Below are positions 38,241 to 61,160 of a stretch of 64,000 bases of DNA, piece after piece. Origin of the DNA: Mariniflexile litorale (lineage in GTDB: Bacteria > Bacteroidota > Bacteroidia > Flavobacteriales > Flavobacteriaceae); the NCBI RefSeq assembly GCF_031128465.2, contig NZ_CP155618.1:4392501-4456500 (forward strand). The letters are read 5' to 3'. Under the pieces are notes generated by a model, which was not told the DNA's origin, searched no databases, and saw nothing but the letters and a program-made list of their open reading frames with translations. Each line of letters starts with the position of its first letter. Position 1 is the first letter of the stretch. The translations under genes and the position numbers were made by a program.

Positions 38241-38278
38241 TGTTCTCAATAAATTATGAGAAAATAATATATACATAC

Positions 38279-42644: not shown

Positions 42645-44060
42645 ATGAATAAAATAATTCAAACAATAATTTATTTGCTGTTTTTTGGAGTTAACCTTAT
42701 TTCAGCCCAAGAAAAACCAAGATTATTTGTTCTTACTGACATTGGTGGTGATCCCGATGACCAGATGTCAATGGTACGCTTAATGACTTATGCTAACCAA
42801 ATAGATATTGAAGGACTTGTTGCCACAGAGGTGAAAGATCAAGTTAACCCTGATCGTATTCAACAAATAGTTGAAGCTTATGGTAAAGTACGTAACAACC
42901 TGGAATTACATGAATCTGGATTCCCTAAAGCCGAGTATTTACAGAAATACATCTCAAAAGGAAGTCCTGTTGGTGGAATGGATGGAATAGGTATAGGAAA
43001 AGATTCTCCAGGATCGGAACTACTAATTAACACGGTAGATAAAAAAGATACAAGACCTTTATGGGTGAATGTTTGGGGAGGACCAAGTGTTTTAGCTCAA
43101 GCATTGTGGAAAGTACGTAACACCCGTTCAAAACAAGAACTTGCCAAATTTGTTGCTAAACTTCGTGTGTATGCTATTTCAGATCAGGATAATAGCGGAC
43201 CATGGATTCGTAAAGAATTCCCAGAGCTTTTCTATATAGTTACACCTGGTGCCAATGCAGGAGGTGGTTTCCATCATTCAACTTGGATTGGTATTGGTGG
43301 AGATAAGTTCCATGGCCGTTTTGGTGGAGCAGATTTTGAATTGGTTACTAATGAATGGCTAGAACGAAACATCCGTAAAAAAGGCTTCCTAGGCAAAATG
43401 TATCCACATTGGGAATTCATGATGGAAGGGGATACGCCTGCTTTTCTTTATCTCGTTAATAATGGTCTTAATAACCCCGAACATCCTAATTGGGGCGGCT
43501 GGGGTGGTCGCTACGAATTGTATACTCCAAAAACCGAAAAGTGGTTCTATCAACCCGAGACGCATCCTATTTGGACAAATGCCGATGATGAAGTATTAGG
43601 TACAGATGGCGAATGGCATGAGACAAATCAAGCAACCATATGGAGATGGCGCGAAGCTTATCAAAATGACTTTGCGGCTCGTATGGACTGGACAATTGTG
43701 CCCTATGATAAAGCCAATCATCCTCCTGTGGTGAAGCTCGATCACCCAGCCTATATCAAAGCTAAAAAAGGTGATCGTATTGAACTTAGCGCCATTAGTA
43801 CAACCGATCCAGATGGCGACCCACTTTCATACGAATGGTTTTGCTATGAAGAGGCAGGTACCCGAGCCATGTCCAATTCTCGAACAGGTATCAAACATGA
43901 CATCATTGGTTTCGATCAACCTAAAGCCACTATCATAGTCAAAAGCAGTCGTGTGATGCCTCCTGGCATTGGAACTATGCATATTATTCTTGCTGTTACC
44001 GACCATGGATCACCACGTTTAACGAGATATCAACGAGTTATCATTGATGTTATTGAATAA
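42645..44060 (+). CDS. DUF1593 (Sde182-type) nucleoside-hydrolase-like protein
   Basis: 471 aa, secreted (signal peptide 1-22, ISAQ). DUF1593 domain with metal motif TDIGGDPDD (Asp32, Asp36, Asp38, Asp39), PLWVNVWGGPSVLAQAL, the [17 protein letters not shown] segment and GDTPAFLYLVNNGL with [12 protein letters not shown]. The C-terminal domain (about 350-471) is the beta-sandwich Sde182 C-terminal type, with STTDPDGDPLSYEWF and a closing RYQRVIIDV. Very similar to the product at 58208. Named after a cellulose-binding protein; no reaction is known for it. Confidence 0.9.
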   Translation: MNKIIQTIIYLLFFGVNLISAQEKPRLFVLTDIGGDPDDQMSMVRLMTYANQIDIEGLVATEVKDQVNPDRIQQIVEAYGKVRNNLELHESGFPKAEYLQKYISKGSPVGGMDGIGIGKDSPGSELLINTVDKKDTRPLWVNVWGGPSVLAQALWKVRNTRSKQELAKFVAKLRVYAISDQDNSGPWIRKEFPELFYIVTPGANAGGGFHHSTWIGIGGDKFHGRFGGADFELVTNEWLERNIRKKGFLGKMYPHWEFMMEGDTPAFLYLVNNGLNNPEHPNWGGWGGRYELYTPKTEKWFYQPETHPIWTNADDEVLGTDGEWHETNQATIWRWREAYQNDFAARMDWTIVPYDKANHPPVVKLDHPAYIKAKKGDRIELSAISTTDPDGDPLSYEWFCYEEAGTRAMSNSRTGIKHDIIGFDQPKATIIVKSSRVMPPGIGTMHIILAVTDHGSPRLTRYQRVIIDVIE

Positions 44061-44159
44061 ACAGACACTCATAAAATATAAATTGGAAATTAAAATAAAC
44101 TCTATACTAAGGATTGTTAAATACAGAAATAAAACAGATTTTTTTCTAAATACTTATCG

Positions 44160-45203
44160 ATGAAATCAAAAACAACAACAAAGAACATATTACAATACAA
44201 ACTTATATTAGTATTGCTGTGTGTTTTTGGGACACTATCAATAAGGGCTCAGGATAAAACCTCAATTTACAACATAGTTGTAGCACAGGATGGCAGCGGA
44301 GATTACACCAAAATTCAAGATGCTATAAATGCCGTACCTAATAACAGTTCTGAACGAACCGTTATCTTTATTAAACCTGGCATTTATAAAGAAAAATTGT
44401 TGGTTCCTTCTGAAAAGAAAAAAGTAACTTTTTTAGGTGAATCCTATAAAACAACAATTCTTACCTACGATGATCATGGAAAGATAACTTCAGATTATGC
44501 CAGCACAAAAATACTAGCAGAAGATTTTTTCGCAAAAAACATTACATTTCAAAATACCATCGATAGCAGGAAAGGTGGATCGCAAGCCGCAGCCTTGAGG
44601 ATAGATGCCGATAGAGCCATATTATACAAATGCAATATTACAGGGTTTCAGGACACATTTTATTTAAAAACTAACACTAGGTCATATATAAAAGACTGTA
44701 TTATTGATGGTACTACCGACTTTATATATGGCGCAGGAATTGCACTTTTTGAAAATTGTATTATTCGAAATAGAAAAGACTCGCACATCACTGCATCAAA
44801 TCAAGAACTAGGAAAAAGTAAATTCGGATTTATCTTCAAGAATTGTTCAATCATTAAATACCCTGGGGAAGACGTATCCAACGCAAGCTTAGGAAGACCA
44901 TGGGGAAATGGCGCCCACACAGTATATTTAAATTGTAGTATAGGCAATCATATTAAACCTGAAGGGTTTGCTCCTTGGTCTACTAAACCAGATCACAAAT
45001 ATTTCAATAACATAAATACGGCTTATTATGGCGTATACAGAGGATCTGGTTATCATCCAGAAAATTTACTTTCTGTGGTACATATATTAGATGATACACT
45101 TGCCGCAAAATATACCAAAAAAAACATTTTTGCAGCTAATAGTACCACTGCAAATAAACTTATTGGGGATTGGAACCCTATAATTGAAAAGACGAACAAA
45201 TAA
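44160..45203 (+). CDS. pectin methylesterase (CE8)
   Basis: 347 aa, secreted (signal peptide to about residue 31, IRAQ; a charged N-region of 13 residues precedes it). Right-handed beta-helix CE8 with the expected active-site set: Gln142 (GSQAAALRI), Gln164 and catalytic Asp165 (GFQDTFY), catalytic Asp187 (TTDFIYGAG), and Arg246 and Trp248 (LGRPWG). It removes methyl esters from homogalacturonan, generating the substrate for the PL1 and PL10 lyases around it. Confidence 0.95.
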   Translation: MKSKTTTKNILQYKLILVLLCVFGTLSIRAQDKTSIYNIVVAQDGSGDYTKIQDAINAVPNNSSERTVIFIKPGIYKEKLLVPSEKKKVTFLGESYKTTILTYDDHGKITSDYASTKILAEDFFAKNITFQNTIDSRKGGSQAAALRIDADRAILYKCNITGFQDTFYLKTNTRSYIKDCIIDGTTDFIYGAGIALFENCIIRNRKDSHITASNQELGKSKFGFIFKNCSIIKYPGEDVSNASLGRPWGNGAHTVYLNCSIGNHIKPEGFAPWSTKPDHKYFNNINTAYYGVYRGSGYHPENLLSVVHILDDTLAAKYTKKNIFAANSTTANKLIGDWNPIIEKTNK

Positions 45204-45227
45204 ATGAAGGTTAAATAAATATATCAC

Positions 45228-46694
45228 ATGAGATATCGTATTTTATTATTCCCCATTTTGCTTTTAGCATACTCGTGTTCAAAAACAACCGATAAAACAA
45301 GTAGCAATTTGAGCCCAGTTGCATTTGGAGATACAATCACTATCTCTCATTTAAACATGGTAATGCTTCCAATACCTTCGGGAAGTATTACGCTTAAAAA
45401 CACTGATTTCGAGACAAGTGATGAAAAGTTAACTCAAGTATCACTTTCAAATTTTTGGCTTGCAAAAACAGAAGTCACCCAGGCACAATATGAAAAAATC
45501 ATGGGAAATAATCCATCGTATTTTAAAGGCGCTAATTTACCAATTGAACAAGTTAGTTGGGAAGATGCCATGAACTTCTGTCATAAATTAACTGATCAAG
45601 AACATGCTGCAGGTCGTATACCTATTGGTTACACTTACACCTTACCAGCAGAAGCACAATGGGAATATGCATGTCGTGCAGGAACTACAGGAGATTATGC
45701 AGGTAATTTAGATGACATGGGGTGGTATGTTAATAATTCCGAAGATAAAAGTCACCCCGTTGGTTTGAAAAAAGCGAATGCATGGGGCTTATATGATATG
45801 CATGGTAACATAAGAGAATGGTGTTTGGATTGGTATGGCGACTATCCTGGCGGATCAAAAACAAATTATTCTGGTCCGGCATCTGGTACCCATCGAGTTA
45901 GCCGTGGTGGTAATTGGCATAGAGGCGCTGAGGCTAGTACTGCTTCAAAAAGAAGTAAAGAGACACAAGGCCGTTGTGACGATTTAAATGGTTTTCGGAT
46001 TGCTCTTAGCCCAATTCCTGAAATAAAAATTGTTATGGTACCAATTCCTGAAGGAACATTTACTTTGAGAAATACAGGAAATAATAAAGAAAAAAGCCTA
46101 ACTGAGGTAACACTTTCTAAATTTTGGTTGGGAGAAACTGAAATAACTCAAGCCCAATATAAAAGCATAATGGGAATAGGTTCTCCTCATTTTCAAGGAC
46201 CAAATTTACCAATGGAACATGCTAGTTGGGAAAATGCCATGGACTTTTGTAAAAAATTAAATGACATAGAACGTGCAGCTGGCCGCCTTCATGATGGGTA
46301 TGAATATACGCTACCAACAGAAGCTCAATGGGAATACGCTAGTCTCGCTGGTACATCAGGAGATTACACGAAAGAAATAGATTCGATGGCATGGTATAAA
46401 AACAACAGTGAAAGAGAAACACACCCAGTTGGAACAAAAAAGCCAAATAATTGGGGGTTGTATGATATGCAAGGAAATGTAAGAGAGTTATGCTATGACT
46501 GGTATACTGAAAGTTATCCAGGTGGTAGTGTAAAAGATTACAAAGGACCTTTATCAGGAAACTATCGTGTTCTAAAAGGTGGTAGTTGGGCAGATTCTGC
46601 TGAAAATTGTAATCCTACAAACCGAGGGTATCGTTCAGAAGGCAGAAAAGGTGAACTCTTAGGTTTTAGAATTGCGCTTAGTTCCATTAGATGA
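45228..46694 (+). CDS. tandem formylglycine-enzyme-like (SUMF1-fold) lipoprotein
   Basis: 488 aa. Lipoprotein (Cys17 in LLLAYSCSK) with two FGE-sulfatase/SUMF1 domains in tandem (about 45-263 and 265-488). Each has the TEVTQAQYEKIMGNNPSYF-like entry, LPxEAQWEYA, NxWGLYDMxGNVRE and a GG-W...GFRIALS end. The paired active-site Cys of true formylglycine-generating enzymes near the C-terminus is not present: the first domain has one Cys (GRCDD) and the second has Cys upstream (AENCNP) but no CR..R pair. So a sulfatase-activating role is unlikely, and no sulfatase is nearby. It may be a carbohydrate-binding or scaffolding protein. Confidence 0.85.
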   Translation: MRYRILLFPILLLAYSCSKTTDKTSSNLSPVAFGDTITISHLNMVMLPIPSGSITLKNTDFETSDEKLTQVSLSNFWLAKTEVTQAQYEKIMGNNPSYFKGANLPIEQVSWEDAMNFCHKLTDQEHAAGRIPIGYTYTLPAEAQWEYACRAGTTGDYAGNLDDMGWYVNNSEDKSHPVGLKKANAWGLYDMHGNIREWCLDWYGDYPGGSKTNYSGPASGTHRVSRGGNWHRGAEASTASKRSKETQGRCDDLNGFRIALSPIPEIKIVMVPIPEGTFTLRNTGNNKEKSLTEVTLSKFWLGETEITQAQYKSIMGIGSPHFQGPNLPMEHASWENAMDFCKKLNDIERAAGRLHDGYEYTLPTEAQWEYASLAGTSGDYTKEIDSMAWYKNNSERETHPVGTKKPNNWGLYDMQGNVRELCYDWYTESYPGGSVKDYKGPLSGNYRVLKGGSWADSAENCNPTNRGYRSEGRKGELLGFRIALSSIR

Positions 46695-46720
46695 TTTATA
46701 AAATATAAACGAATAAACAT

Positions 46721-48121
46721 ATGAAAAAATATTTTTTAACCACTGTATTAGTTACAGTATTTACATCACTGTCATGGGCGCAACAACTAGCATTTCCAAC
46801 TGCTGAAGGTTATGGTAAATTTACTACCGGAGGTCGTGGTGGTGAGGTATTCGAAGTTACAAACTTAAACGATTCTGGAGAAGGAAGTTTACGTGCCGCC
46901 GTTGAAGCATCTGGACCAAGAACTGTTGTATTCCGAGTTTCTGGAACCATAAATCTTAAAAGTAATTTAGAAATTAAAAAACCATTTATTACCATAGCTG
47001 GACAAACAGCTCCTGGAGATGGTATAACGCTGAGAGCACGCCCCCTTATAATCCGCGCAGATGATGTTATTGTTCGTTACATTAGAGTGCGTTTGGGTGA
47101 CGAATCTGGAGATGCTACGGATGGTGTTACAAGCAGATTTACAAACAATCTTATCTTAGATCATCTTTCTGTAAGTTGGAGTATAGATGAAACCATGTCG
47201 GTTTACCAAGGAACCAATACCACAGTGCAATGGTGTATCGTAGCTGAAAGTTTATATATGTCGAATCATACCAAAGGTAGCGATCATGGGTATGGGGGTA
47301 TTTGGGGATCCAACTACAGTACGTTTCACCACAATTTACTAGCGCATCATTCCAGCCGAAATCCACGATTTGTTTCAGGAGCTGGTAATACCGACTACCG
47401 AAATAATGTAGTATATAATTGGGGGTTCCATGCTTCCTATGGTGGTGAAGTTGTTCAACCAAAAAAAGAAGATAAATATAATTTCACCAATATCAATATG
47501 GTGGCTAATTACTATAAGCCAGGACCTGCAACAGTTCCTGGTAAAAGAACCAATAGATTCGTTGCGCCATGGTCTCGAAACAAAGCTGAAGATTATGGAA
47601 AATGGTATCTTTCTGATAATTTTCTTGTAGGAAATCCTGAAATATCCGCAAATAACTGGAAAGGTGGTGTGCAACCACAAGATGGTGATGACTATATTGA
47701 GGGGCTTAAATTAAGTGAACCTTGGCCTGCCATGCCAATCAATCAACAAACGGCAGAAAATGCTTATCATTCTGTTCTTGAAAATGCAGGAACGAGCCTT
47801 CCTAAACGAGATACTGTAGACCTTCGTATTATTGATGAAGTTAGAAATGGATATGCCACCTTTGAAGGTTCTGCGTACAAAACCAAACATGAAGTTAAAG
47901 ATCTATCTAAGAAAACGGGGATTATTGATTCTCAGGAAAACGTAGGTGGTTGGCCAGAACTAAAAAGCACTCCCGCCCCACTCGATACAGATCATGATGG
48001 TATGCCTGATGCTTGGGAAATTAAGAACAAACTAAATCCAAAAAATGCTAACGACAGAAATAATATTGGTAAAGATGGGTATACCATGCTAGAACTATAT
48101 TTAAACAGTATAAAAAACTAA
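46721..48121 (+). CDS. PL1 pectate lyase
   Basis: 466 aa with a signal peptide (1-20, SWAQ). PL1 beta-helix with PTAEGYGKFTTGGRGG, AGQTAPGDGITL, LDHLSVSWSIDETM (calcium site) and SRNPRFVSG (catalytic Arg segment), followed by DYRNNVVYNWG. The C-terminal DTDHDGMPDAWE motif ends in DGYTMLELYLN. Very similar to the next gene, including long stretches of near-identical DNA around 47300-47345 and 48745-48790, so one is a duplicate of the other. Cleaves homogalacturonan by beta-elimination. Confidence 0.93.
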   Translation: MKKYFLTTVLVTVFTSLSWAQQLAFPTAEGYGKFTTGGRGGEVFEVTNLNDSGEGSLRAAVEASGPRTVVFRVSGTINLKSNLEIKKPFITIAGQTAPGDGITLRARPLIIRADDVIVRYIRVRLGDESGDATDGVTSRFTNNLILDHLSVSWSIDETMSVYQGTNTTVQWCIVAESLYMSNHTKGSDHGYGGIWGSNYSTFHHNLLAHHSSRNPRFVSGAGNTDYRNNVVYNWGFHASYGGEVVQPKKEDKYNFTNINMVANYYKPGPATVPGKRTNRFVAPWSRNKAEDYGKWYLSDNFLVGNPEISANNWKGGVQPQDGDDYIEGLKLSEPWPAMPINQQTAENAYHSVLENAGTSLPKRDTVDLRIIDEVRNGYATFEGSAYKTKHEVKDLSKKTGIIDSQENVGGWPELKSTPAPLDTDHDGMPDAWEIKNKLNPKNANDRNNIGKDGYTMLELYLNSIKN

Positions 48122-48165
48122 AAACATATTACTCGACATCACATAATTTATAAATATATATTCTA

Positions 48166-49596
48166 ATGAAAAAATATTTTTTTACTATACTAGTTATTAC
48201 ATTGTGTTTATCACCTTCATGGTCTCAGCAATTATCATTTCCAACTGCTGAAGGTTATGGTAAATACACTGTTGGAGGGCGCGGTGGCGACGTTTACGAA
48301 GTTACCAATCTCAACGATTCTGGCGAAGGAAGTTTACGTAATGCCATTGAAGCTTCTGGGCCAAGAACCGTTATATTCAAAACTTCTGGAACAATAATTC
48401 TTAAAAGTGATTTAAGAATTAAAAATCCTAATATCACCATTGCTGGTCAAACAGCTCCAGGAGATGGTATTACATTACGTGCCTACCCGCTACTCATTGA
48501 TGCAGATGAGGTCATTATCCGATACATAAGAGTAAGACTCGGTAATGAATCAGGTGATGATACAGATGCCATAACCAGTCGATATAAGAAGAACATTATC
48601 CTTGACCATGTATCAGCTAGTTGGAGTATTGATGAAACCATGTCAGTTTATCATGGTGAAAATGTAACTATACAATGGTGTATCATTTCAGAAAGCCTAT
48701 ACATGTCTAACCATAAAAAAGGTAGTGATCATGGTTATGGAGGTATTTGGGGTTCCAACTACAGTACGTTTCACCACAATTTAATAGCAAATCACTCAAG
48801 CCGAAATGTGCGTTTTGCTTCAGGTTGTCAAAATGTAGATTATAGAAATAATGTCGTGTATAACTGGGGTTATAAAAGTACTTATGGTGGTGAAGTAGTG
48901 CAATTAAAAGCAGAAGATCGTTTTAATTTTACCAATATCAATATGGTAGCTAACTATTATAAACCAGGCCCTGCGACTGAACCAGGAGACGTTTCACACC
49001 AGTTAGCAAATCCTTGGTCACGTAACGGAGATAGTGACTATGGTAAATGGTATATTGCTAATAATGTCATGGTAGGTAGCCCCGAAGTAACTACAGATAA
49101 CTGGAAAGGTGTTGTACCTTCATTAACAGCTATTAAAGATGTACAAGAATATAAATTAAGTAATTTAGGGGCACTTCCAAGTTTAAAACTTGATAAGCCT
49201 TGGCCTGCAATGGCAATAAATCAGCAATCAGCTGAACAAGCCTATCAAGAAGTTCTAAAAAAAGCAGGAGCTATTTTACCTAAAAGAGATGCTGTAGATT
49301 CTCGTATTATTGAAGAAGCTAAAAACGGATATGCTACTTATGAAGGTGTAACCTATAAAAAGCAACACAAAGTGGCCGATATCTCTAAAAAAACAGGAAT
49401 TATCGATTCACAAGAAGAAGTAGGTGGTTGGCCAGAATTAAAAAGCACTCCTGCTCCTAAAGATACAGACCATGATGGTATGCCAGATGCTTGGGAAAAG
49501 AAAAATAAACTGAATCCAAAAAACGCCAGTGATAGAAACAAAATTGGTGCAGATGGCTACACCATGTTAGAAATATATTTAAATAACATAAAGTAA
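48166..49596 (+). CDS. PL1 pectate lyase (duplicate)
   Basis: 476 aa with a signal peptide (1-20, SWSQ). Same architecture as the preceding PL1: GRGGDVYEVTNLND, AGQTAPGDGITL, LDHVSASWSIDETM and SRNVRFASG before DYRNNVVYNWG. It has a short insertion near 315-340 (IKDVQEYKLSNLG) absent from its neighbour. The Pro of RNPR is replaced by Val in the Arg segment, a small difference that may affect specificity. It shares the calcium-type C-terminal motif. Presumed homogalacturonan lyase. Confidence 0.93.
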   Translation: MKKYFFTILVITLCLSPSWSQQLSFPTAEGYGKYTVGGRGGDVYEVTNLNDSGEGSLRNAIEASGPRTVIFKTSGTIILKSDLRIKNPNITIAGQTAPGDGITLRAYPLLIDADEVIIRYIRVRLGNESGDDTDAITSRYKKNIILDHVSASWSIDETMSVYHGENVTIQWCIISESLYMSNHKKGSDHGYGGIWGSNYSTFHHNLIANHSSRNVRFASGCQNVDYRNNVVYNWGYKSTYGGEVVQLKAEDRFNFTNINMVANYYKPGPATEPGDVSHQLANPWSRNGDSDYGKWYIANNVMVGSPEVTTDNWKGVVPSLTAIKDVQEYKLSNLGALPSLKLDKPWPAMAINQQSAEQAYQEVLKKAGAILPKRDAVDSRIIEEAKNGYATYEGVTYKKQHKVADISKKTGIIDSQEEVGGWPELKSTPAPKDTDHDGMPDAWEKKNKLNPKNASDRNKIGADGYTMLEIYLNNIK

Positions 49597-49620
49597 AAAC
49601 AACAAATTAAAGAAACATTC

Positions 49621-51096
49621 ATGAATAAGCATTTTACAGCTTTACTCGTTTTTATACTAATATTTTCTGTTTCAAATTCGCAACAACTGGCATTTCCAGG
49701 TGCTGAAGGGTTTGGTGCGTATTCTAAAGGCGGACGAGGTGGACAAGTAATTGAAGTAACGAATTTACTTGATGACCTAGACGGATCTATCGAAGGTAGT
49801 TTACGTTGGGCATTTAAAAAGAGTACATCTGAACCTACAACTATTGTTTTCAGAGTTTCTGGTATTATTAATTTGAAAACACAATTAAGAGGGAAGTTTA
49901 CTAAAGGTTTAACACTTGCTGGTCAAACAGCTCCTGGCGATGGTATTTGTATTAGTGGAAACAAAGTTAACCTCGGTGGAAGTTCAAATCTAATTATTCG
50001 TCATATTCGATTTAGAATTGGACTGGATGAAGATGATAAATTTATCGAAGGTGGCTCTTTAGGTCTCGAAAATGCGAACCATGTTATTATTGATCATTGC
50101 ACATTCGGGTGGTCTAGTGAAGAAAACATGACCATGTATGATAATGATTTCACAACCGTTCAATGGTGTATTGTACACGAAGGCCTTTTCGCTTCGGGCC
50201 ATGCCAAAGGTGCTCGCAGTTATGGGGCACAGTGGGGCGGACAAAATGCAACCTATCACCATAATCTACTAGCACATAACTATAGCAGAAGTCCAAGATT
50301 TAATGGTAGCAAGCATCATGATAAAAATGTAAAATACGAGTATGTAAACAATGTTAATTATAACTGGGGAAAAACAAATGCTGCTTATGGTGCTTATATT
50401 GAAATAGCAGATGGTACTTATAACTGCAATTTCATTAATAACTATTATAAACCAGGCCCTGCACATCCTGGTAGTGAAACTTCATTTTTCGCTGAATCTT
50501 TACATCATGGTATTCAAGGAGATTCACTAATTGCTAAATGGTATATGCATGGAAATATAATGGAAGGCGTTGCTAATAAAGCACTAAATAAAGATAATTC
50601 TCTTGGATTAAATGCTGAACGTTATGAAGCAGTTAATGTTCCTAGATCTGCATTAATAGCTAAAGCCCCCTTTAAAATGCCACATACACTTCATGTAGAA
50701 TCAGCAAAAGATGCCTACAAAAGTGTCCTTGAAGAAGCTGGAGCATTTCCTAGAGATATCGTTGACGAGCGTATTGTAAGCGAAGTGAAGAGTGGAACTG
50801 CTTCTGGAAAAGGAACAACTGAAAAATATCAAGATAAAAGAAAAGATAACGGTTACATAGACAATCCTTTTTATGGTAAAACTAAGGGTATCATTGACAA
50901 CCCTGCTTTAGCTTTTGGTGATAATGCTTTTCCAGAATATAAAACTTATAAAGTTCCTATGGATACAGACCATGATGGTATGCCTGATGCTTGGGAAAAT
51001 AAAAATGGACTGAATCCAAATAATTCTGATGATAGAAACCACATAGGTAAAGACGGATATACCATGTTGGAAATATATCTCAATCAAATATTATAA
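49621..51096 (+). CDS. PL1 pectate lyase, divergent
   Basis: 491 aa, secreted (signal peptide to about residue 20, SNSQ). It keeps AFPGAEGFGAYSKGGRGG, AGQTAPGDGICI, IDHCTFGWSSEENM and YNYSRSPRF before YNWG, so the calcium site and catalytic Arg are retained. The sequence differs much more than the tandem pair, with an extended N-terminal strand (DDLDGSIEGSLRWAFKKS), extra loops and SEENM replacing the usual VDETM. Probably a different pectin specificity (methyl pattern or apiose/xylose substitution). It has the same C-terminal DTDHDGMPDAWE motif. Confidence 0.88.
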   Translation: MNKHFTALLVFILIFSVSNSQQLAFPGAEGFGAYSKGGRGGQVIEVTNLLDDLDGSIEGSLRWAFKKSTSEPTTIVFRVSGIINLKTQLRGKFTKGLTLAGQTAPGDGICISGNKVNLGGSSNLIIRHIRFRIGLDEDDKFIEGGSLGLENANHVIIDHCTFGWSSEENMTMYDNDFTTVQWCIVHEGLFASGHAKGARSYGAQWGGQNATYHHNLLAHNYSRSPRFNGSKHHDKNVKYEYVNNVNYNWGKTNAAYGAYIEIADGTYNCNFINNYYKPGPAHPGSETSFFAESLHHGIQGDSLIAKWYMHGNIMEGVANKALNKDNSLGLNAERYEAVNVPRSALIAKAPFKMPHTLHVESAKDAYKSVLEEAGAFPRDIVDERIVSEVKSGTASGKGTTEKYQDKRKDNGYIDNPFYGKTKGIIDNPALAFGDNAFPEYKTYKVPMDTDHDGMPDAWENKNGLNPNNSDDRNHIGKDGYTMLEIYLNQIL

Positions 51097-51132
51097 GAGT
51101 CATCAATTTAAACTAAAAATTAAATTAACACT

Positions 51133-52470: not shown

Positions 52471-52529
52471 TTTAAAAAAAATGACGAAAGCAAATTCTTA
52501 AAACCATAATTAATTACAACTAAACCAAT

Positions 52530-54485
52530 ATGGAATATCTAATAAAATTAAGCAGATTAAAATTACTCCGTTTTACTTTTAGTTTAGTGATAACAGTAAT
52601 TAGTACTACCGGGTTTTCACAAACAACTAATTCAAAAAAAGCAAATGGTAATGGCAATGTAACAATTTCAGGAGAACTTCGTCAATGGCATAATATAACT
52701 TTAAACCTTGCAGGGCCTTTTACCAACGAAGCCGACAAAGTTATAAATCCATTTACCGATTATCGCTTTAATGTGATTTTTAAACATGAATCTGGATCAC
52801 CTAAATATACGGTTCCTGGATATTTTGCAGCCGATGGAAATGCAGCTGAATCAGGTGCTACATCGGGTGAAATCTGGCGAGCTCACCTTTCTCCTGATCG
52901 GATAGGGAAATGGACCTATACCATTTTATTTGTTAGCGGTTCAGGAGTTGCCATTTCAGATTTATCAGGTAAAACCGTTGCCCCATACCATGGAGTTACA
53001 GGTTCTTTTGAAATAAAACCAACTGATAAAAGCGGACGAGATTTCCGTGGAAAAGGACGTTTACAATATGTGGGACGTCATTATTTACAGTTTGCAGGTA
53101 ATGGTGAGTATTTTCTAAAAGCAGGACCCGATTCACCTGAAACATTATTGGGTTCAGTAGATTTCGACAATACCATTGCTCGTAAAAAAAATGTACCACT
53201 TAAAACTTGGACATCACATGTTAAAGATTGGAATAATAATGATCCCGTTTGGCATAATAATAAAGGAAAAGGACTTATTGGTGCTCTTAATTATTTAGCT
53301 AGCAAAGGTGTTAATTCAATCTCTTTTCTACCATACAATGCAGGTGGCGATGGTGATAATGTTTGGCCTTTTGTGGAACGTAACGACAAATTTCATTACG
53401 ATTGCTCTAAACTAGACCAGTGGGAAATCGTTTTTGCCCATGCTCAGAAACTTGGATTACACTTGCATTTTAAATTACAAGAAACAGAAATTGATGACAA
53501 TAGAAAACGGAACGGTGCAAATATTATAGATATTCCACTAAAATCTGGAGAAATCGTTGCTGTACCAGAATCTCTTGACGGTGGTAAATTAGGTCCAGAG
53601 CGCAAACTCTATTTGCGTGAACTTATCGCTCGTTATGGTCATCATCTTGCATTAAACTGGAATCTTGGCGAAGAAAACACACAAACACCTGAAGAACAAC
53701 GTGCCATGGCGTTGTATATCAAAGAAACAAACCCTTATAATCACAACATCGTTATTCACTCTTATCCTAATATGCAAGATCGTGTTTACACACCGCTTCT
53801 TGGAAACGGATCAGTATTAACCGGTGCATCACTGCAAAACATGTGGAATGAAACCCATGCCAAAACATTGCAGTGGGTAAAAGCTTCCGATTTAAGCGGT
53901 AAAGCATGGGTTGTGGCTAATGATGAACAAGGTTCTGCAAATCTTGGAGTCCCACCAGACCCTAATTACGATGGATTTAACGGCACCGCTGGTGAAGGAA
54001 ATGATGCGTATGATTTAAATGATGTGCGCCGTTACACGCTTTGGGGAAATCTTATGGCAGGTGGTGCTGGTGTTGAATATTATTTTGGATATAAATTGAC
54101 TCAAAACGACATCATCGCTGAAGATTTCAGAAGTCGTGATAAATCATGGGAATATTGCAAAATAGCCTTAGATTTTTTTAAAGACAATAACATCCCGTTT
54201 TGGGAAATGAAAAATGAAAATGAATTGGTAGGCAATTTTTCTGCTGATAATTCTATATATTGTTTTGCTAGCAAGAATGAACTCTATCTTGTTTACCTCC
54301 CACTTGGTGGTAAAGCTAATTTAGACATGACTTTAGCATCAGGTGAATTTACGCTGTCATGGTTTAATCCTCGAACTGGTGGTTCACTTTCACCAGAAAC
54401 CATTATAGGAGGTGGTCAATCAGTATTACTTTCTGCACCATCTGAAAAAGAGGATTGGCTTGCTGTTGTTAAACGCAAGAAATAA
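52530..54485 (+). CDS. large DUF5060-type glycoside hydrolase
   Basis: 651 aa with a signal peptide (to about residue 32, GFSQ). DUF5060 N-terminal domain (about 45-170: WHNITLNLAGP, GYFAADGNA, WRAHLSPDRIGKWTY). A TIM-barrel catalytic region (about 185-545) has LALNWNLGEENTQ (probable acid/base Glu) and WVVANDEQGSAN (probable second carboxylate), and a C-terminal beta domain (about 570-651) is of the putative collagen-binding type. The two other DUF5060 proteins of this window are shorter. Function within pectin breakdown is likely; the target linkage is unknown. Confidence 0.8.
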   Translation: MEYLIKLSRLKLLRFTFSLVITVISTTGFSQTTNSKKANGNGNVTISGELRQWHNITLNLAGPFTNEADKVINPFTDYRFNVIFKHESGSPKYTVPGYFAADGNAAESGATSGEIWRAHLSPDRIGKWTYTILFVSGSGVAISDLSGKTVAPYHGVTGSFEIKPTDKSGRDFRGKGRLQYVGRHYLQFAGNGEYFLKAGPDSPETLLGSVDFDNTIARKKNVPLKTWTSHVKDWNNNDPVWHNNKGKGLIGALNYLASKGVNSISFLPYNAGGDGDNVWPFVERNDKFHYDCSKLDQWEIVFAHAQKLGLHLHFKLQETEIDDNRKRNGANIIDIPLKSGEIVAVPESLDGGKLGPERKLYLRELIARYGHHLALNWNLGEENTQTPEEQRAMALYIKETNPYNHNIVIHSYPNMQDRVYTPLLGNGSVLTGASLQNMWNETHAKTLQWVKASDLSGKAWVVANDEQGSANLGVPPDPNYDGFNGTAGEGNDAYDLNDVRRYTLWGNLMAGGAGVEYYFGYKLTQNDIIAEDFRSRDKSWEYCKIALDFFKDNNIPFWEMKNENELVGNFSADNSIYCFASKNELYLVYLPLGGKANLDMTLASGEFTLSWFNPRTGGSLSPETIIGGGQSVLLSAPSEKEDWLAVVKRKK

Positions 54486-54510
54486 AAATTAATTAATTAA
54501 AATTGAAAAA

Positions 54511-55341
54511 ATGAAGGATAATTTAAATAGCTATACAACATTAAATAACGGACTTAAAATGCCATGGTTGGGCTTTGGTGTTTATCAAATTGAAGATGGA
54601 AATGAAGTTCAAAATGCCGTAAGTAGTGCTTTAAAATTAGGTTATAGAAGTATTGATACAGCTACTGTTTATGGCAATGAAATAGGTGTTGGAAAAGCAA
54701 TAAAAGAGAGCGGAATTCCAAGAGAAGATATCTTTTTAACTACTAAAGTATGGAATGATGACCAACGTAAAAATCGAACTTTAGCTGCATTTCAAGAAAG
54801 TCTAAAACGTCTTGATACCGATTATGTTGATTTGTATTTAATACATTGGCCTGTGGCTGGTTGCTATCAAAAAACTTGGAAAGTCATGGAAGAAATTTAT
54901 AAAAGTGGACGTGCTAAAGCTATTGGAGTGAGTAATTTCCTTGTTCCTCATCTTCAAGATATTTTAAATTTAAATACTATAGTGCCAAGTATTAATCAAA
55001 TGGAATTCCACCCATATCTTGTACAACCGGAGTTATTAAATTTCTGCCAGAACCATCATATTCAAATGGAAGCTTGGAGTCCTTTAATGCAAGGTCATAT
55101 TGTAGATGTTCCAACTGTTCAAAACATTGCTAAAAAATATAAGAAAACACCTGCTCAGATTGTTTTACGCTGGGATTTACAACATGAAGTTATAACCATT
55201 CCTAAATCAGCTAATCCCAATCGTATTATTGAGAATACTCAAATTTTTGACTTTGAGCTCTCTCAAACTGAAATGGAAGAATTAGATGCATTAGACCAGA
55301 GTAAACGTTTTGGTCCCGATCCTGCAAATTTTGATTTTTAA
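54511..55341 (+). CDS. aldo/keto reductase
   Basis: 276 aa without signal peptide, so cytoplasmic among mostly secreted neighbours. The catalytic tetrad is intact: Asp49, Tyr54, Lys79 and His112 (SIDTATVYGNE, TTKVW, LIHWP). The NADPH-binding IPKSANPNRIIEN segment is present. It may reduce a carbonyl sugar released by the locus, such as a uronate derivative or apiose, but the substrate is unknown. It lies 16 bp before a DUF1593 gene. Confidence 0.93.
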   Translation: MKDNLNSYTTLNNGLKMPWLGFGVYQIEDGNEVQNAVSSALKLGYRSIDTATVYGNEIGVGKAIKESGIPREDIFLTTKVWNDDQRKNRTLAAFQESLKRLDTDYVDLYLIHWPVAGCYQKTWKVMEEIYKSGRAKAIGVSNFLVPHLQDILNLNTIVPSINQMEFHPYLVQPELLNFCQNHHIQMEAWSPLMQGHIVDVPTVQNIAKKYKKTPAQIVLRWDLQHEVITIPKSANPNRIIENTQIFDFELSQTEMEELDALDQSKRFGPDPANFDF

Positions 55342-55357
55342 ATAAGCATATTCTATT

Positions 55358-56707
55358 ATGAAAAAAATAAAGATTATCACAAATATTATATTGATTTTTC
55401 TCTATCTATTTTTAAATTCAGAGCATATAGCTGCTCAAAACAAAGATTTAAAACCCAGAGTAATCGTCATGACCGATGGAGAGGTAGATGATCATAGCTC
55501 TATGATTCGGTTTTTACTTTACTCTTGTGATGTAGATTTACTTGCCATTATTGAAACCAATTCCATTTTTCAAAGAAATGGACATAGTGATGAGGATTGG
55601 TATGAAAAACAATTGGAAGCCTACAAGCAAGTGTATCCTAATCTCATTAAACACAATTCAAACTACCCTACCTATGAAAAGCTTAAAAGCATTAGTTATA
55701 TAGGTGATGAAGACATTGAACATTTAAAAGATTTACGGGCTAAAAGATGGGAATTGATACCAGGAGGCGACATTAAGTTTACACCTGAAAAATGGTCTGA
55801 CACTCCTGGATCAGACAAGATTGTTGAGATATTACTAGAAAAAAATCCAGCTCCAGTGTACATACAAGCATGGGGCGGTGGAAATACCGCTGCACGCGCG
55901 TTCTATAAATTAAAAACGGAGTATCCAGACCAATATGACCAAGCGATATCCAAAGTTATCATGTATAATATTTGGTATCAAGATGGTGCTGGAAACTATA
56001 TTGAAAACAAACATCCGAAAGTAACTATGCTTTATTGTGGTTCTTTTGCAGGTACTTGGAATTATAGAAGTCAGAAAAACACCTATGATCTTATAAAAAA
56101 TGATATTAAAAACAATCATGGGCCACTAGGTGCTTTATACCCACAAGATTATGTTAGTGAAGGAGATTCTCCAGCGTTTCTTTACTTTGTTGAAAATGGT
56201 CTTAGAAATCATGAAAATCCAGCTTATGGTGGTTGGGGTGGTAGGTTTACAAAATCTGATAAATTTGAGAATGTATATGTCGATGCAAAAGATGATGGCG
56301 ATATAAAAAAATCTCTTGGTAGATGGGTAGACGATGCCAACAGAGATTTTGAAGCACGTATGACGTGGTGCATTGCTGAAAATTATAAAGATGCCAACCA
56401 TGTACCAATTGTTAAACTAAAAAACACAGAAACTATAACTGTTAAGAGCGGAAAAAAAGTAAAATTGGACGCTAGTAAATCTTATGACCCAGATGGAAAT
56501 AACATCACTTTTAACTGGTGGATATACAAAGATGCTGGGAGTTATGATGGATTGGTAAAACTTCAAGATTCAGACAAAGGAGTTTCATCTTTTGTTGCAC
56601 CTAAAGTAAATAAAGCAGAAAACATTCATATTATTTTGGAAGTTAGAGACAACGGAGACCCTGCTCTAGTGTCTTATAAAAGAATGATCATAACTGTAAA
56701 ACCATAA
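55358..56707 (+). CDS. DUF1593 (Sde182-type) protein
   Basis: 449 aa, secreted (signal peptide to about residue 27, IAAQ). Metal motif MTDGEVDDHSSM (Asp40, Asp44, Asp45), PVYIQAWGGGNTAARAF, GDSPAFLYFVENGL and NPAYGGWGGRF, followed by a Sde182-type C-terminal domain with ASKSYDPDGNNITFNWW. It belongs with the 59706 product to a subgroup having D-G-E-x-D-D in the metal site, whereas the 42645 and 58208 products have the longer loop. Located between the aldo/keto reductase and a GH140-like gene. Confidence 0.9.
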   Translation: MKKIKIITNIILIFLYLFLNSEHIAAQNKDLKPRVIVMTDGEVDDHSSMIRFLLYSCDVDLLAIIETNSIFQRNGHSDEDWYEKQLEAYKQVYPNLIKHNSNYPTYEKLKSISYIGDEDIEHLKDLRAKRWELIPGGDIKFTPEKWSDTPGSDKIVEILLEKNPAPVYIQAWGGGNTAARAFYKLKTEYPDQYDQAISKVIMYNIWYQDGAGNYIENKHPKVTMLYCGSFAGTWNYRSQKNTYDLIKNDIKNNHGPLGALYPQDYVSEGDSPAFLYFVENGLRNHENPAYGGWGGRFTKSDKFENVYVDAKDDGDIKKSLGRWVDDANRDFEARMTWCIAENYKDANHVPIVKLKNTETITVKSGKKVKLDASKSYDPDGNNITFNWWIYKDAGSYDGLVKLQDSDKGVSSFVAPKVNKAENIHIILEVRDNGDPALVSYKRMIITVKP

Positions 56708-56733
56708 AACTAAACTAACTAAAAACTAAACAT

Positions 56734-58149
56734 ATGACAAAAAATGTATTAATTATTGCATTTATAACCTTTTCAATTTGCGTAAAAGGTCAAGCGCCAT
56801 GGGATAATGGAAATTTAAAAGTGTCCGAGAATGAGCGTTATTTACAACATGCCAATGGCAAACCATTTTTTTGGTTGGGCGATACGTCTTGGTTATTACC
56901 AATAAGATTAAACAGAGACGAAGTGAAACTATACTTTGAAAATCGCAAAGAAAAAGGTTTTAACGTGGTACAGTGCATTTTTGTTCAAAATTACGATCAT
57001 AAAAATTCTTATGATGATTACCCTTATGCAAATGATGATGTTTCGCAACCTATTCAAACTCCTGGCAATAACCCAAACAATTCAGATGAATATGATTATT
57101 TTGATCATCTAGACTACATCGTGGAAGTTGCTGCTCAAAATGGAATTTATATAGCTTTAACACCGACTTGGAGAGATTTGGTAAAAAAAGATACCAACCT
57201 CACCATTGAAAAAGCAGAATTATTTGCAGCCCATTTAGGGAATCACTTTAAAAATAAACCCAACATCATATGGGTAAATGGAGGCAGTACTAAAGGAGAT
57301 ACCTTTACTGAAATTTGGCAAACTATTGGTGCTACTATCAAAAAAACCGATCCAAACCATTTAATTACATTTCATCCTTTTGGTAGAATGCAATCGAGTA
57401 CATGGTTTAATAATGATTCTTGGCTAGATGTAAACATGTTTGTTTCAGGGCACAGAACGTATGCTCAAGATGAAACTGGTTATGGAGAAGATAGTTGGCG
57501 TTATGTTTTAGACGATTTATCTAAAAAGCCACTTAGACCAACCTTAGATGGCGAAGCCTCCTATGAATCGCTTCCACAAGGCATTCATGACCATTCACAA
57601 CCTTATTGGAAAGCAAATGATATAAGACGTTATGCATATTGGTCTGTTTTTGCAGGATCTTGTGGTCACGTATACGGTGAAAACACTGTACGTCAAGTAT
57701 ATAAAGAAGGAGAAAATGCTCCTGAAAGCGGCGCAAAATTATCTTTTGTTGAAGCTTTAGATGTTGAAGGTGCTTTTGAACTACAATACTTAAAAAATCT
57801 TATTTTATCTCGCCCTTACTTTGAACGAATGAATGATCAATCGGTTGTTGCTGGTGATGAAGGTGAAAAATACAATCGCATTTTGGTATCAAAAGGAAAA
57901 GACTATCTAATGGCTTATAATTATACAGGACGCAATTTTACAATTCAAATGGGTAAAATTTCTGGAGAAAAAGTAATTGCCTGGTGGTACGATACCCGAA
58001 CCGGTTCGTCACAAAAAATTGGTGAATTTGAAAATAAAGGCAAGCTTACTTTTAATCCGCCTGGTACAAAATTTAACGGAAACGACTGGGTATTGCTTCT
58101 TGATAATAAATCAAAAAAATTCAATACTCCAGGTATTGTAATTCAGTAG
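56734..58149 (+). CDS. GH140-like (DUF4038) apiosidase-family protein with altered acid residue
   Basis: 471 aa, secreted (signal peptide 1-20, VKGQ). DUF4038/GH140 family: LQHANGKPFFWLGDTSWLL opening, a TIM-barrel, and a C-terminal putative collagen-binding domain (about 385-465). GH140 enzymes release apiose-linked side chains from rhamnogalacturonan II. Glu274 (LDGEASYE) fits the nucleophile-type carboxylate. The other position, normally Asp in a GGD motif (Asp203 in the 61173 product), is Ser185 here (NIIWVNGGST), so catalysis or specificity may be changed. Confidence 0.82.
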   Translation: MTKNVLIIAFITFSICVKGQAPWDNGNLKVSENERYLQHANGKPFFWLGDTSWLLPIRLNRDEVKLYFENRKEKGFNVVQCIFVQNYDHKNSYDDYPYANDDVSQPIQTPGNNPNNSDEYDYFDHLDYIVEVAAQNGIYIALTPTWRDLVKKDTNLTIEKAELFAAHLGNHFKNKPNIIWVNGGSTKGDTFTEIWQTIGATIKKTDPNHLITFHPFGRMQSSTWFNNDSWLDVNMFVSGHRTYAQDETGYGEDSWRYVLDDLSKKPLRPTLDGEASYESLPQGIHDHSQPYWKANDIRRYAYWSVFAGSCGHVYGENTVRQVYKEGENAPESGAKLSFVEALDVEGAFELQYLKNLILSRPYFERMNDQSVVAGDEGEKYNRILVSKGKDYLMAYNYTGRNFTIQMGKISGEKVIAWWYDTRTGSSQKIGEFENKGKLTFNPPGTKFNGNDWVLLLDNKSKKFNTPGIVIQ

Positions 58150-58207
58150 TTTACTGTCAAAAAATGACTAAATTTATAAAATTATTAAAATTTAAATACT
58201 AATAAAA

Positions 58208-59683
58208 ATGACTAAATTAAACACCGACAGAAATACACTAAAATTTAATAAACGCTTTCAGGTAAAGATTATTAAAGCATTAATTATTTTCTTGTTTTTT
58301 GGAACAAGTGTCATTTTAGCACAAGAAAAACCAAGAGTTTTTGTATTGACTGATATTGAAAATGAACCTGATGATGCTATGTCACTGGTTCGCTTCTTAG
58401 TGTATGCTAATAATTATGATATAGAAGGGTTGGCTGCCACCACTTCTATTCATCAACAGCATGAAATCGCAACCTATCGCGTCAAAGAAATCGTGGAAGC
58501 TTATAGTAAAGTAAGGGATAATCTAGAAAAGCATGAATCAGGTTTCCCAACAGGAGACTACTTAAAATCTATAATTACAGAAGGGCTATCTGAATATGGT
58601 GTAAAAGCCGTTGGTAAAGGGAAAGATTCTAATGCCTCTGAATTGCTAATAAAAACGGTTGATAAAAACGATCCAAGACCATTATGGGTAACTGTTTGGG
58701 GCGGACCAAATGTTTTAGGACAAGCGCTATGGAAAGTAAAACAAACGCGATCTGCTAAGGAACTTCAGAAATTTGTTTCAAAACTTCGTGTATATGCTAT
58801 TTCAGATCAAGACGATAGTGGCCCATGGATCCGTAAAGAATTCCCAGAATTATTTTACGTTATAAGCCCAGGGTTTAATCAAGGAGGTGCTTATCATCAT
58901 GCCACTTGGAGTGGTATTAGTGGCGACTTTTTTCATGCGCGATGTGAAGGCGGTGATTTTAGTACGGTTACTAACGAATGGCTTGAAAAAAATATAAGAA
59001 AAAAAGGACCTTTAGGTGCTGAATACCCGCTATGGGAATACTTAATGGAAGGTGATACACCTTCATTTTTATCACTAATCAACAATGGATTAAACAACCC
59101 TGAACATCCTGAATATGGTGGCTGGGGAGGTCGTTATGAATTATATACACCAAGAATGCAAAAATGGCATCTTTATCCAGAAAGCAGACCAATCTACTCG
59201 GATGCTGATGATGAAGTATTAGGTGTTGATGGACGTTGGCACGATGGAAATCATGAAACCATTTGGAGATGGAGAAATGCGTTTCAATACGATTTTGCAG
59301 CGAGAATGGATTGGACAATTAAAGATTATGATGAAGCCAACCACCCACCTATCGCTAAACTAGGTCACGATAATAATTTAGTGGCTAAAAAAGGGGATAA
59401 AGTGATGCTAAGTGCAAAAGGTTCTAACGACCCTGATGGTGACGCACTTTCATATGAGTGGTTTTTATATTCAGAGGCTGGAACATTTCCGCTTTCAAGT
59501 GCCCGTAGTGGACAACCTTTAGAAATTCAGAATTTTGACCAACAAGAAGCTTCTTTCGTAGTTCCTACAAAACGTATTATGGAACCTGGAATTGGAACTA
59601 TGCACATTATTTTAGCAGTTACAGATCATGGAACGCCAAGGTTAACTCGCTATCAACGTATTATTGTTACTATTAAAGAATAA
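58208..59683 (+). CDS. DUF1593 (Sde182-type) protein
   Basis: 491 aa with a long charged N-region before the signal-peptide core (about 20-39, ILAQ). Metal motif TDIENEPDD (Asp49, Asp55, Asp56), [48 protein letters not shown] and [13 protein letters not shown]-terminal domain with [13 protein letters not shown], ending RYQRIIVTI. Closely related to the 42645 product. Separated from the GH140-like gene by 58 bp and from the next DUF1593 by 22 bp. Confidence 0.9.
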
Positions 59684-59705
59684 TAAATAAGTTAAATATT
59701 AAAAA

Positions 59706-61160
59706 ATGAAAAAAATACCATTTTTAAGTTTTATACTTCTGTTTTTAACAGTACAAACTGAGGTTAATAGTCAAAATCAAAAAACAAGAGTTATTGTCAC
59801 TTCAGACGGAGAAATAGATGATGAATGTTCTATGGTAAGATTCCTACTGTATGCGAACGAATGGGATGTTGAAGGTATTATTACCTCTAGTTCTCAATAT
59901 CACTGGCAAGGACATAAATGGGCGGGCGATGATTGGATTAATCCTTATCTTGATGCCTATGAAAACGTCTATCCTAATTTAATAAAGCACAGCCAAGATT
60001 ATCCTACTCCTGAATATTTAAAATCTATTAATTTTTTAGGCAATGTTGAAGCCCAAGGCGAAATGAACGCCATCACCCCTGGTTCAGAACATATTGCGAA
60101 AGTATTACTAGATGAATCGGATAATAGGCACATCTGGATTCAAGCATGGGGAGGTACAAACACTATTGCAAGAGCCTTAAAAACCATTGAAGAAGAGCAT
60201 CCTGATAAAATGGAATACGTAGCTAATAAACTTCGCTTTTTCTTCATTTGGGAACAAGATGATACGTATCAAAAGTACATTCGTCCGCATTGGGGTAAGT
60301 ATAATATTCAAACCATTATATGCGATCAATTTTGGGCCGTTGCTTACCAATGGGATAAGATAATCCCAGAAGATAAAATAAGCTATTTTAGAAATGATTG
60401 GATGAAATCTAACATTCTAGAAAATCATGGGTCGCTTTGTTCTTTATATGAAGCCTATAAAGGTGATGGTGATAACGAAGGATTTAGAGCCGAAAACCAT
60501 AAAAAGAAAGGCGATTTTAGATCTGAAGGAGATTCTCCTGCTTTTATATATGCAATTCCAACAGGACTGCGCTCTTTAGAATCACCAAATTATGGTGGTT
60601 GGGGTGGTCGCTATGTGAATGTTAGAGAAAACACTTGGTTAGATCCAGTACCTGAAGCCAACTACACCTACCCAGAAGGACGCTGGTTTACACAAACAGC
60701 ATGGGGACGAAACTATATGCGTAATATATATCCTGAAAATCAGGATTTAATGAATGCCTATTTTAATCCTATAACGAGATGGGTAGATGCTTTACAGAAT
60801 GATTTTGCAGCTCGTGCAGATTGGTGTGTTAAATCTTATGAAGAAGCCAACCACCCACCCATTGTAAAACTTAAAAATGCCATAGATATTTATGCAAAAC
60901 CTGGCGACAAAATTAAACTTGATGGTAAAGGAACAATTGATCCTGATGGTGATAAACTTAAATATGCTTGGTGGCAACATAATGAAGCTGGAACTTATAT
61001 TCATAGTATTTCTATAATAAATTCTACCGAACAAAAGGCTTCATTTACAGTTCCAAAAAATGCAGAAAAAGGACAAACTATTCATATTATTTATGAAGTA
61101 AAAGATAGTGGAACTCCCCAGCTAACTAGATATCAACGTATTATTATAACTATAAAGTAA
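59706..61160 (+). CDS. DUF1593 (Sde182-type) protein
   Basis: 484 aa with a signal peptide (to about residue 23, VNSQ). Metal motif TSDGEIDDECSM (Asp34, Asp38, Asp39), HIWIQAWGGTNTIARAL, GDSPAFIYAIPTGL and [12 protein letters not shown]. It has extra loops in the middle (about 245-330) and a Sde182-type C-terminal domain with TIDPDGDKLKYAWW. It is the fifth copy in the window, and three of the five are clustered around the two GH140-like genes. Confidence 0.9.
   Translation: MKKIPFLSFILLFLTVQTEVNSQNQKTRVIVTSDGEIDDECSMVRFLLYANEWDVEGIITSSSQYHWQGHKWAGDDWINPYLDAYENVYPNLIKHSQDYPTPEYLKSINFLGNVEAQGEMNAITPGSEHIAKVLLDESDNRHIWIQAWGGTNTIARALKTIEEEHPDKMEYVANKLRFFFIWEQDDTYQKYIRPHWGKYNIQTIICDQFWAVAYQWDKIIPEDKISYFRNDWMKSNILENHGSLCSLYEAYKGDGDNEGFRAENHKKKGDFRSEGDSPAFIYAIPTGLRSLESPNYGGWGGRYVNVRENTWLDPVPEANYTYPEGRWFTQTAWGRNYMRNIYPENQDLMNAYFNPITRWVDALQNDFAARADWCVKSYEEANHPPIVKLKNAIDIYAKPGDKIKLDGKGTIDPDGDKLKYAWWQHNEAGTYIHSISIINSTEQKASFTVPKNAEKGQTIHIIYEVKDSGTPQLTRYQRIIITIK

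Follow-up and report, generated by a model that had tools for sequence, protein, structure and literature searches.

What five proteins of the family PF07632 (DUF1593) do in a pectin locus of Mariniflexile litorale is the question that this stretch of DNA raises. The window, by which we mean the whole stretch of 64,000 nucleotides that was analysed (contig NZ_CP155618.1, positions 4,392,501 to 4,456,500), encodes all of them on the plus strand, at 27382..28680, 42645..44060, 55358..56707, 58208..59683 and 59706..61160. Below, each gene and its protein are called by the first of these positions. An earlier note on this DNA had regarded them as paralogues that co-expanded with apiosidase-like genes of family GH140, and through these genes had tied them to the sugar apiose.

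A role of PF07632 in apiose use is quite likely. Further, we lean towards the view that the five proteins are secreted calcium-dependent D-apiofuranosidases with a nucleoside-hydrolase fold, which would act most likely on branches of pectin. This proposal starts from the gene content of the locus, from the family membership and the retained metal residues of the proteins, and from an operon that recurs near PF07632 genes in six phyla. In the open-licence papers that we searched, we found neither a tie of PF07632 to apiose catabolism nor a reaction assigned to the family, of which a structure paper has existed since 2011 (as cited in PMC8910321).

Metal site of the PF07632 proteins

All five proteins passed the Pfam cut-off of PF07632, which is 26.8 bits, and the five starts given by the earlier note were confirmed. 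The scores were 175.7 bits for 27382 (432 amino acids), 358.9 bits for 42645 (471 amino acids), 210.7 bits for 55358 (449 amino acids), 377.7 bits for 58208 (491 amino acids) and 246 bits for 59706 (484 amino acids). Four of the five carried a C-terminal PF21027 domain. The exception was 27382, in which the C-terminal stretch gave a weak DUF5060 match (36.7 bits) at the place where the others carry PF21027. A hydrophobic, signal-like stretch was present at the N-terminus of all five, as judged by a crude hydrophobicity count. The start of 27382 resembled that of a lipoprotein: by a crude pattern, a Cys stands where a lipobox would have it.

The Asp-rich metal motif of the nucleoside-hydrolase kind, which the earlier note had pointed out, was found throughout. 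Asp49, Asp55, Asp56 and Asp283 (residue numbers are those of 58208) were kept in 5/5 window proteins and in 63/63 aligned relatives; these 63 rows are part of 93 diverse rows. The complete set of residues invariant in the 63 was Arg43, Asp49, Asp55, Asp56, Ser59, Tyr99, Leu106, Trp164, Gly165, Gly282, Asp283, Trp306, Gly307, Gly308 and Gly475.

The profiles were compared by hhalign with the nucleoside hydrolases RihC and RihA of E. coli and three further PF01156 proteins. We obtained a match of 133 columns within residues 40-201 (94% probability, E = 1.3e-7). Asp49 fell on Asp10 of RihC, at position three of the DxDxxxDD fingerprint, and Asp55 and Asp56 fell on Asp14 and Asp15, the final pair of this motif. 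The opening Asp of the motif was absent in 63/63 and two extra loop residues were present in 50/63, while 55358 and 59706 had a short metal loop. Asp283, which lies beyond the end of the aligned part, is presumably the distant calcium ligand. In Pfam none of the five window proteins matched PF01156 at an E value of 0.001. Unlike nucleoside hydrolases, they have the signal-like N-terminus and, in 4/5, the PF21027 domain.

The calcium of nucleoside hydrolases binds the O2' and O3' hydroxyls, and a bound water attacks C1' (PMC8910321). According to the same source the residue that precedes the last Asp is His or Trp, in a third group Cys, and some active enzymes lack such a residue. In PF07632 this position was Gly282 in 63/63. 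Since Gly stands where the leaving-group activator would be expected, we dropped the reading of these proteins as nucleosidases. Judged from the aligned residues, PF07632 keeps one half of the site, that for the cis-diol and the water, and has lost the nucleobase-handling residue. A cis-2,3-diol is present in apiofuranose as it is in ribofuranose, but not in arabinofuranose.

The closest protein of solved structure belongs to the same family. It is Sde_0182 of Saccharophagus degradans (PDB 2yhg; PF07632/PF21027), which was matched by 58208 with 303 bits (phmmer, E = 4.4e-89) and by the family profile with 443 bits over most of the chain. Its metal Asp residues and its WGG and EGDTP motifs align with those of the window proteins. 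It has three carbohydrate-binding domains in addition (PMC8910321), whereas Pfam found none in the window five. The part of PMC8910321 that deals with this protein states no link to apiose.

Another reading, which we consider unlikely, takes the PF07632 proteins as non-catalytic binders. They would keep calcium and bind apiose or another furanose for capture or presentation, and GH140 and other enzymes would do the cutting. Sde_0182 is reported to keep its calcium and to be inactive on nucleosides, and it is called catalytically inactive (PMC8910321), which weighs against catalysis by its relatives in the window. The idea of a furanose-interacting module is already in print for this protein (Hehemann 2011, as cited in PMC8910321), and the invariant Gly282 in place of His, Trp or Cys points in the same direction. 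However, the inactivity is stated there for nucleosides and not for apiosides, and the invariance of the metal Asp residues across very different lineages fits catalysis at least as well. Further, binders would not obviously substitute for hydrolases, and 11 of the 29 genomes that have both the operon and PF07632 gave no match above 100 bits to PF13204, the GH140 family, with weaker matches in 9 of those 11. This search covered 29 of the 33 loci with the operon, L020, L027, L036 and L052 being left out.

The apiose-type operon and its linkage to PF07632

The locus runs past the window end. The last gene of the forward run encodes an unsaturated-uronyl hydrolase of GH88/105 type (62668..64000, plus strand, cut by the window end; the whole gene, at 168-1541 of the adjoining stretch L007, scored 253 bits to Glyco_hydro_88). 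It is followed by an operon on the opposite strand. Its genes encode, in this order, an FGGY kinase, an Rbs-type permease, an ATPase, a 207-aa protein, an RbsB-type binding protein, a transketolase split into two genes (first the C-terminal half, then the N-terminal half), a protein like fucose isomerase and a regulator of DeoR type. Beyond the regulator a SusC/SusD pair lies on the forward strand.

We compared the operon with the D-apiose cluster of E. coli SE15, which served as reference; other Escherichia strains that carry this cluster grew on D-apiose, and the same report is the source of the names aptA, aptB, aplK and apsI (PMC13001218). Identities were 43% for the permease, 41% for the ATPase, 36% for the binding protein, 36% for the kinase, 46% for AptA and 40% for AptB. 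The 207-aa protein was DUF2291 by profile (62 bits). Importer, DUF2291, kinase and split transketolase are thus common to both. The SE15 cluster differs in its regulator, which is of another type, and in having two short-chain dehydrogenase/reductase (SDR) oxidoreductases instead of the isomerase (PMC13001218).

The isomerase was 52% identical to that of a cluster on a Rahnella plasmid; in this cluster the kinase and the transketolase halves share 72-79% identity with their E. coli counterparts. No PF07632 gene was annotated in the examined stretches of the SE15 and Rahnella clusters. A Listeria record holds an isomerase (26% identical), transketolase halves (55 and 45%), a glycerol-kinase-like gene (42%), a phosphotransferase system (PTS) and, one gene beyond the row of isomerase, transketolase and kinase, a GH140-type DUF4038 gene. 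A Klebsiella plasmid record, CP110761.1 (11.6 kb), has an isomerase homologue with 53% identity. Because its parts match the SE15, Rahnella and Listeria clusters, the operon beyond the window can be read as one for import and catabolism of a sugar that is predicted to be apiose.

To see how regularly such operons accompany the family, 84,980 species genomes were scanned with an alignment led by 58208. At least 564 relatives were confirmed, and the best 80 of the 564 were retained together with flanks of up to 10 kb; some of these loci lie on short contigs, and open reading frames (ORFs) were called mechanically. Neighbour families were defined as protein clusters over 83 sources, namely the 80 loci, the window, L007 and L008. 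Parts of the operon were the most frequent of these families, each found in 16 to 27 of the 83 sources. At least two operon families were present in 33/80 loci, from six phyla, and at least four in 26/80. A PF07632 gene touched an operon gene (same strand, at most 300 bp) in 18/80 loci, from four phyla. Operon genes stood on both sides of PF07632 in 7 loci, and in 6 of them PF07632 lay between transketolase and binding protein. Relatives embedded in the operon occur, for example, in Dyadobacter fermentans (L064, 10007-11434) and Runella (L068). Within the operon loci, 19 of the 64 PF07632 genes touched an operon gene, as compared with at most 2 genes of any other protein cluster and 6 of 122 unclustered genes together.

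The 80 loci had been picked by PF07632. Therefore, we also ran surveys that took the isomerase as their starting point, one in a class sample of 197 genomes and one in a family sample of 121 genomes of the Dyadobacter fermentans family. In the class sample PF07632 passed its cut-off in 12 genomes and a strong isomerase was present in 4, one of them the window's own genome; all 4 were among the 12 (Fisher, p = 8e-6). This count excludes G158, in which the isomerase match scored 64 bits. In the Dyadobacter family 43/121 genomes had the isomerase. PF07632 lay within 20 kb of it in at least 38/43 genomes (0.9 expected by chance) and within 5 kb in at least 30/43 (0.3 expected), where the expectations assume uniform placement and 3 of the 43 genomes (G022, G024 and G028) were seeds. 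The map of G302, with two PF07632 genes inside the operon, adds a 39th genome with linkage. PF07632 matches of at least 345 bits were found in 32/43 isomerase genomes and in 24/78 others (p = 4e-6).

In G284 and G307, which have the isomerase and no PF07632 match, the operon is followed by a DUF5060 gene and, after SusC/SusD, by a GH140 gene, as if either PF07632 or GH140 could supply sugar to the operon. A DUF5060 gene lies inside the operon in G290. DUF5060 proteins were also seen in or beside the apiose-type operon in L117, L121, L113, L115 and L081. The arrangement looks as if several hydrolase families competed for the same operon slot.

A number of findings weigh against apiose as the sugar and against a close tie of the family to the operon. 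The binding protein is nearest to ribose-binding proteins. In NCBIfam the kinase goes under the name of glycerol kinase, and the only match of the putative D-apiose isomerase, to sulfoquinovose isomerase, stays below the threshold. Further, several members of the family sit in xylan-type or mixed glycoside loci: beside GH115 in Catenovulum, glucuronate genes in Croceicoccus, and a rhamnosidase and GH1 in Selenomonas, in addition to a sixth copy of M. litorale described below. In L017 a PF07632 gene adjoins a GH127 beta-L-arabinofuranosidase gene.

These facts would suit furanosidases for another sugar, which could be a riboside or an arabinofuranoside or could differ between lineages. The operon beside them would then serve that sugar. 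We hold this to be quite improbable. For the transketolase halves, the kinase, the importer and DUF2291, the match is with the cluster whose carriers grew on D-apiose (PMC13001218). The Listeria row of isomerase, transketolase and kinase lies near a DUF4038 gene, though the isomerase is distant there. Moreover, the stereochemistry of the sugars suggests that a 2,3-trans arabinofuranoside would be ill-suited to calcium chelation of a cis-diol.

With regard to linkage, 43 of the 165 labelled PF07632 proteins were next to the operon, 32 were in the same locus and 90 were without operon in the examined DNA. The window's five are counted with these 90, as the operon lies beyond the window end. No operon was found in the incomplete gene tables of seven plasmid stretches with PF07632, out of 11 such matches; the surroundings of PF07632 there include a rhamnosidase and GH1, GH115, glucuronate genes and GH127. 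In the class sample PF07632 lay far from the isomerase in 2 of the 4 isomerase genomes, and the isomerase overlapped with GH140 in 3/4 and with PL10 in 3/4. In the Dyadobacter family any PF07632 was present in 41/43 isomerase genomes and in 60/78 others (p = 0.01), a weak contrast, and about as weak as that for GH140 presence (p = 0.03). The contrast is weak because both PF07632 (101/121) and GH140 (103/121) are nearly universal in this family. In Caulobacteraceae PF07632 was found in 13/119 genomes and AptA-like matches above 400 bits only in two seeds; the next matches, 330 and 322 bits, were in genomes without PF07632. As only the two seeds carry such strong matches, this replicate is no independent test, and we count it against a general link.

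PF07632 is broader than the operon, through other apiose routes, other substrates, or both. That it is a general plant-polysaccharide family whose apiose link is incidental to loci shared with many sugar-utilisation genes is very improbable: the 90 members without operon, the lack of association beyond the seeds in Caulobacteraceae and the frequent pectin neighbours (PL10 in 15/80 loci) favour it, but the adjacency is specific to PF07632 among all neighbour clusters, and the survey that started from the isomerase exceeded the chance expectation many times.

Lineages, GH140 and the pectin locus

We compared the five proteins with one another. The other four were 22-25% identical to 27382, and the remaining three were 65, 38 and 39% identical to 58208. 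In a tree of 151 of the 165 PF07632 proteins (length filter), the five fell in five places. 55358 was an isolated lineage that paired only with the protein at 13034 of L026. Members of the major clade of 27382 sit inside apiose-type operons in L116 and L120, and members of the 59706 clade adjoin the operon in L012, L016 and L061. Operon-adjacent members were spread over the main clades, and well-supported branches forced at least 26 changes. The five PF07632 proteins are separate old lineages, not recent copies. A recent tandem duplication was ruled out by the identities and the tree. Of the "co-expanded" paralogues of the earlier note, the five genes are confirmed; expansion is too strong a word for them.

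Aurantibacter crassamenti (L013) has 27382-, 58208- and 59706-type genes, GH140, a two-component pair and a 42645-type gene in this order, with the operon divergent beside them. Most genes of the cassette were 71-89% identical to those of the window; for 42645 the counterpart (L013, 17428-18912) was 71% identical. With four of the PF07632 genes in order and the operon beside them in L013, the set has the look of a cassette that is old and conserved.

The sixth PF07632 gene of the genome lies on the same contig at position 449,498 (L008, 9418-10851). Its neighbours are genes of GH67, GH3, GH43 and GH2 and an acetylesterase-type gene. From its gene content, this locus looks like a glucuronoxylan rather than a pectin locus.

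Two GH140-type genes stand among the PF07632 genes of the window. The protein of 56734..58149 (plus strand) scored 340.5 bits to PF13204 and 434 bits to PDB 3kzs/5msy, which we take to be the GH140 apiosidase BT1012. The protein of 61173..62639 (plus strand) scored 244 bits to PF13204 and 161 bits to 8t9w, entitled 'Apiosidase'. Both therefore belong to GH140 by family match and by similarity to solved apiosidases. The catalytic residues of BT1012 are presumably Asp187 and Glu284. At these motif positions 61173 keeps Asp and Glu, while 56734 keeps Glu and has Ser instead of Asp (GGS, not GGD). Ser, Gly or Ala at the position of Asp187 was seen in 4 of 14 GH140-type proteins (window, L034, L035 and L083). 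The placement described by the earlier note is right: 55358 and 58208 flank 56734, 59706 precedes 61173, and every listed ORF of at least 150 aa from 27382 to 62639 is on the plus strand of one pectin locus.

PF07632 and GH140 did co-occur at genome level. In the class sample PF13204 matches of at least 100 bits were found in 8/12 PF07632 genomes and in 5/185 others (odds ratio 72), and strong PL10 matches in 5/12 PF07632 genomes (odds ratio 21). The lines for strong matches, 100 bits for PF13204 and 200 bits for PL10, were both chosen after the scores had been seen; at the Pfam cut-off PF13204 matched 15/197 genomes and PL10 18/197. GH140 was present in 9/80 relatives' loci, and 31 of the 33 operon loci had no GH140 in the locus. 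In the Dyadobacter family it lay within 20 kb of the isomerase in at least 6/43 genomes (0.5 expected). We therefore rejected co-expansion with GH140 as the main explanation. Nor is expansion of PF07632 tied to GH140 and pectin lyases, as the earlier note had supposed. In G030 one PF07632 gene adjoins the operon and three more lie within about 21 kb, and this genome gave only 22 bits for PF13204 and no PL10 match. The apiose link drawn by the earlier note is better supported by the operon (33/80 loci) than by GH140, which is not a close partner.

The other genes of the locus, all on the plus strand, include those of predicted pectin-degrading enzymes. There are three PL10-type pectate lyases, at 28726..31563 (with CBM35/CBM6; PF09492, 329.5 bits), 37143..38240 (375 bits) and 39954..41123 (367 bits), a CE8-type pectin methylesterase at 44160..45203 (PF01095, 215 bits) and a GDSL-type esterase at 35461..36090 (PF13472, 89 bits). 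The pectate-lyase-like protein of 41181..42608 forms one sequence cluster with those starting at 46721, 48166, 49621 and 51133. These five had almost no Pfam match, and 51133 matched PelZ of NCBIfam with 173 bits, below the cut-off of 840. One PelZ-type PL1_2 enzyme is reported to act on apiogalacturonan (PMC11229556). A protein with an FGE-sulfatase-type (formylglycine-generating-like) domain lies between the methylesterase and the lyases (45228-46694). The DUF5060/DUF5605 protein of 38222..39886 gave a low-scoring Apiosidase match (PF13204, 61.9 bits) and 78 bits to PF16586; Pfam found further DUF5060 proteins with starts at 33753 and 52530.

A two-component response regulator and a histidine kinase are encoded at 31670..33618 (Pfam) and a PepSY-like protein at 36292-37107. 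They were 89, 71 and 56% identical, respectively, to their counterparts in Aurantibacter L013. Their conservation with the cassette suggests that these three proteins may sense its substrate.

Proposed role in apiose release

We infer that the sugar is apiose, that the proteins are catalytic and that the substrate is either apiogalacturonan of the seagrass and duckweed type or rhamnogalacturonan II (RG-II). In apiogalacturonan of Zostera the galacturonan bears apiose, as single residues or in short chains (PMC7644952, PMC11229556), and in RG-II the borate ester is formed on the apiose of side chain A (PMC12168206). A polymer of the apiogalacturonan type would fit the locus better than RG-II alone, because there are many homogalacturonan-type lyases, two GH140-type and five PF07632 proteins.

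In the mechanism that we propose, cleavage of the backbone would fall to the pectin lyases together with the methylesterase, the GDSL esterase and the GH88/105 enzyme. Apiose would be taken off by the PF07632 and GH140-type proteins, which may differ in the linkage or the place along the chain that they attack. In PF07632 the invariant Asp49, Asp56 and Asp283 would hold a calcium ion. This ion would chelate the neighbouring 2- and 3-hydroxyls of apiofuranose, in the way known for ribose in nucleoside hydrolases, and would place a water molecule to attack C1. PF07632 lacks the nucleobase-activating residue, and the proton for the sugar oxygen of the leaving group would come from a different residue. 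The ribose-type ABC importer would then take apiose in, and isomerase, kinase and split transketolase would feed it into central metabolism. PF07632 and GH140, the family of the apiosidase BT1012, share loci and probably a substrate class, and they are unrelated; PF13204 (GH140) is of TIM-barrel type.

In summary, PF07632 may be an unrecognised glycoside hydrolase family, a nucleoside-hydrolase fold that works on sugar-sugar bonds as partner of the apiose operon, with or without GH140, and the five lineages of the window may share out the apiose linkages of pectin. On this wider proposal our judgement is evenly balanced. The specific substrate makes the function of PF07632 directly testable. 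If the proposal is true, PF07632 would be a second apiose-releasing enzyme family beside GH140, and the nucleoside-hydrolase fold would gain a role on O-glycosides. The family would also serve as a genomic marker for degraders of apiose-rich pectins, including those of seagrass and duckweed.

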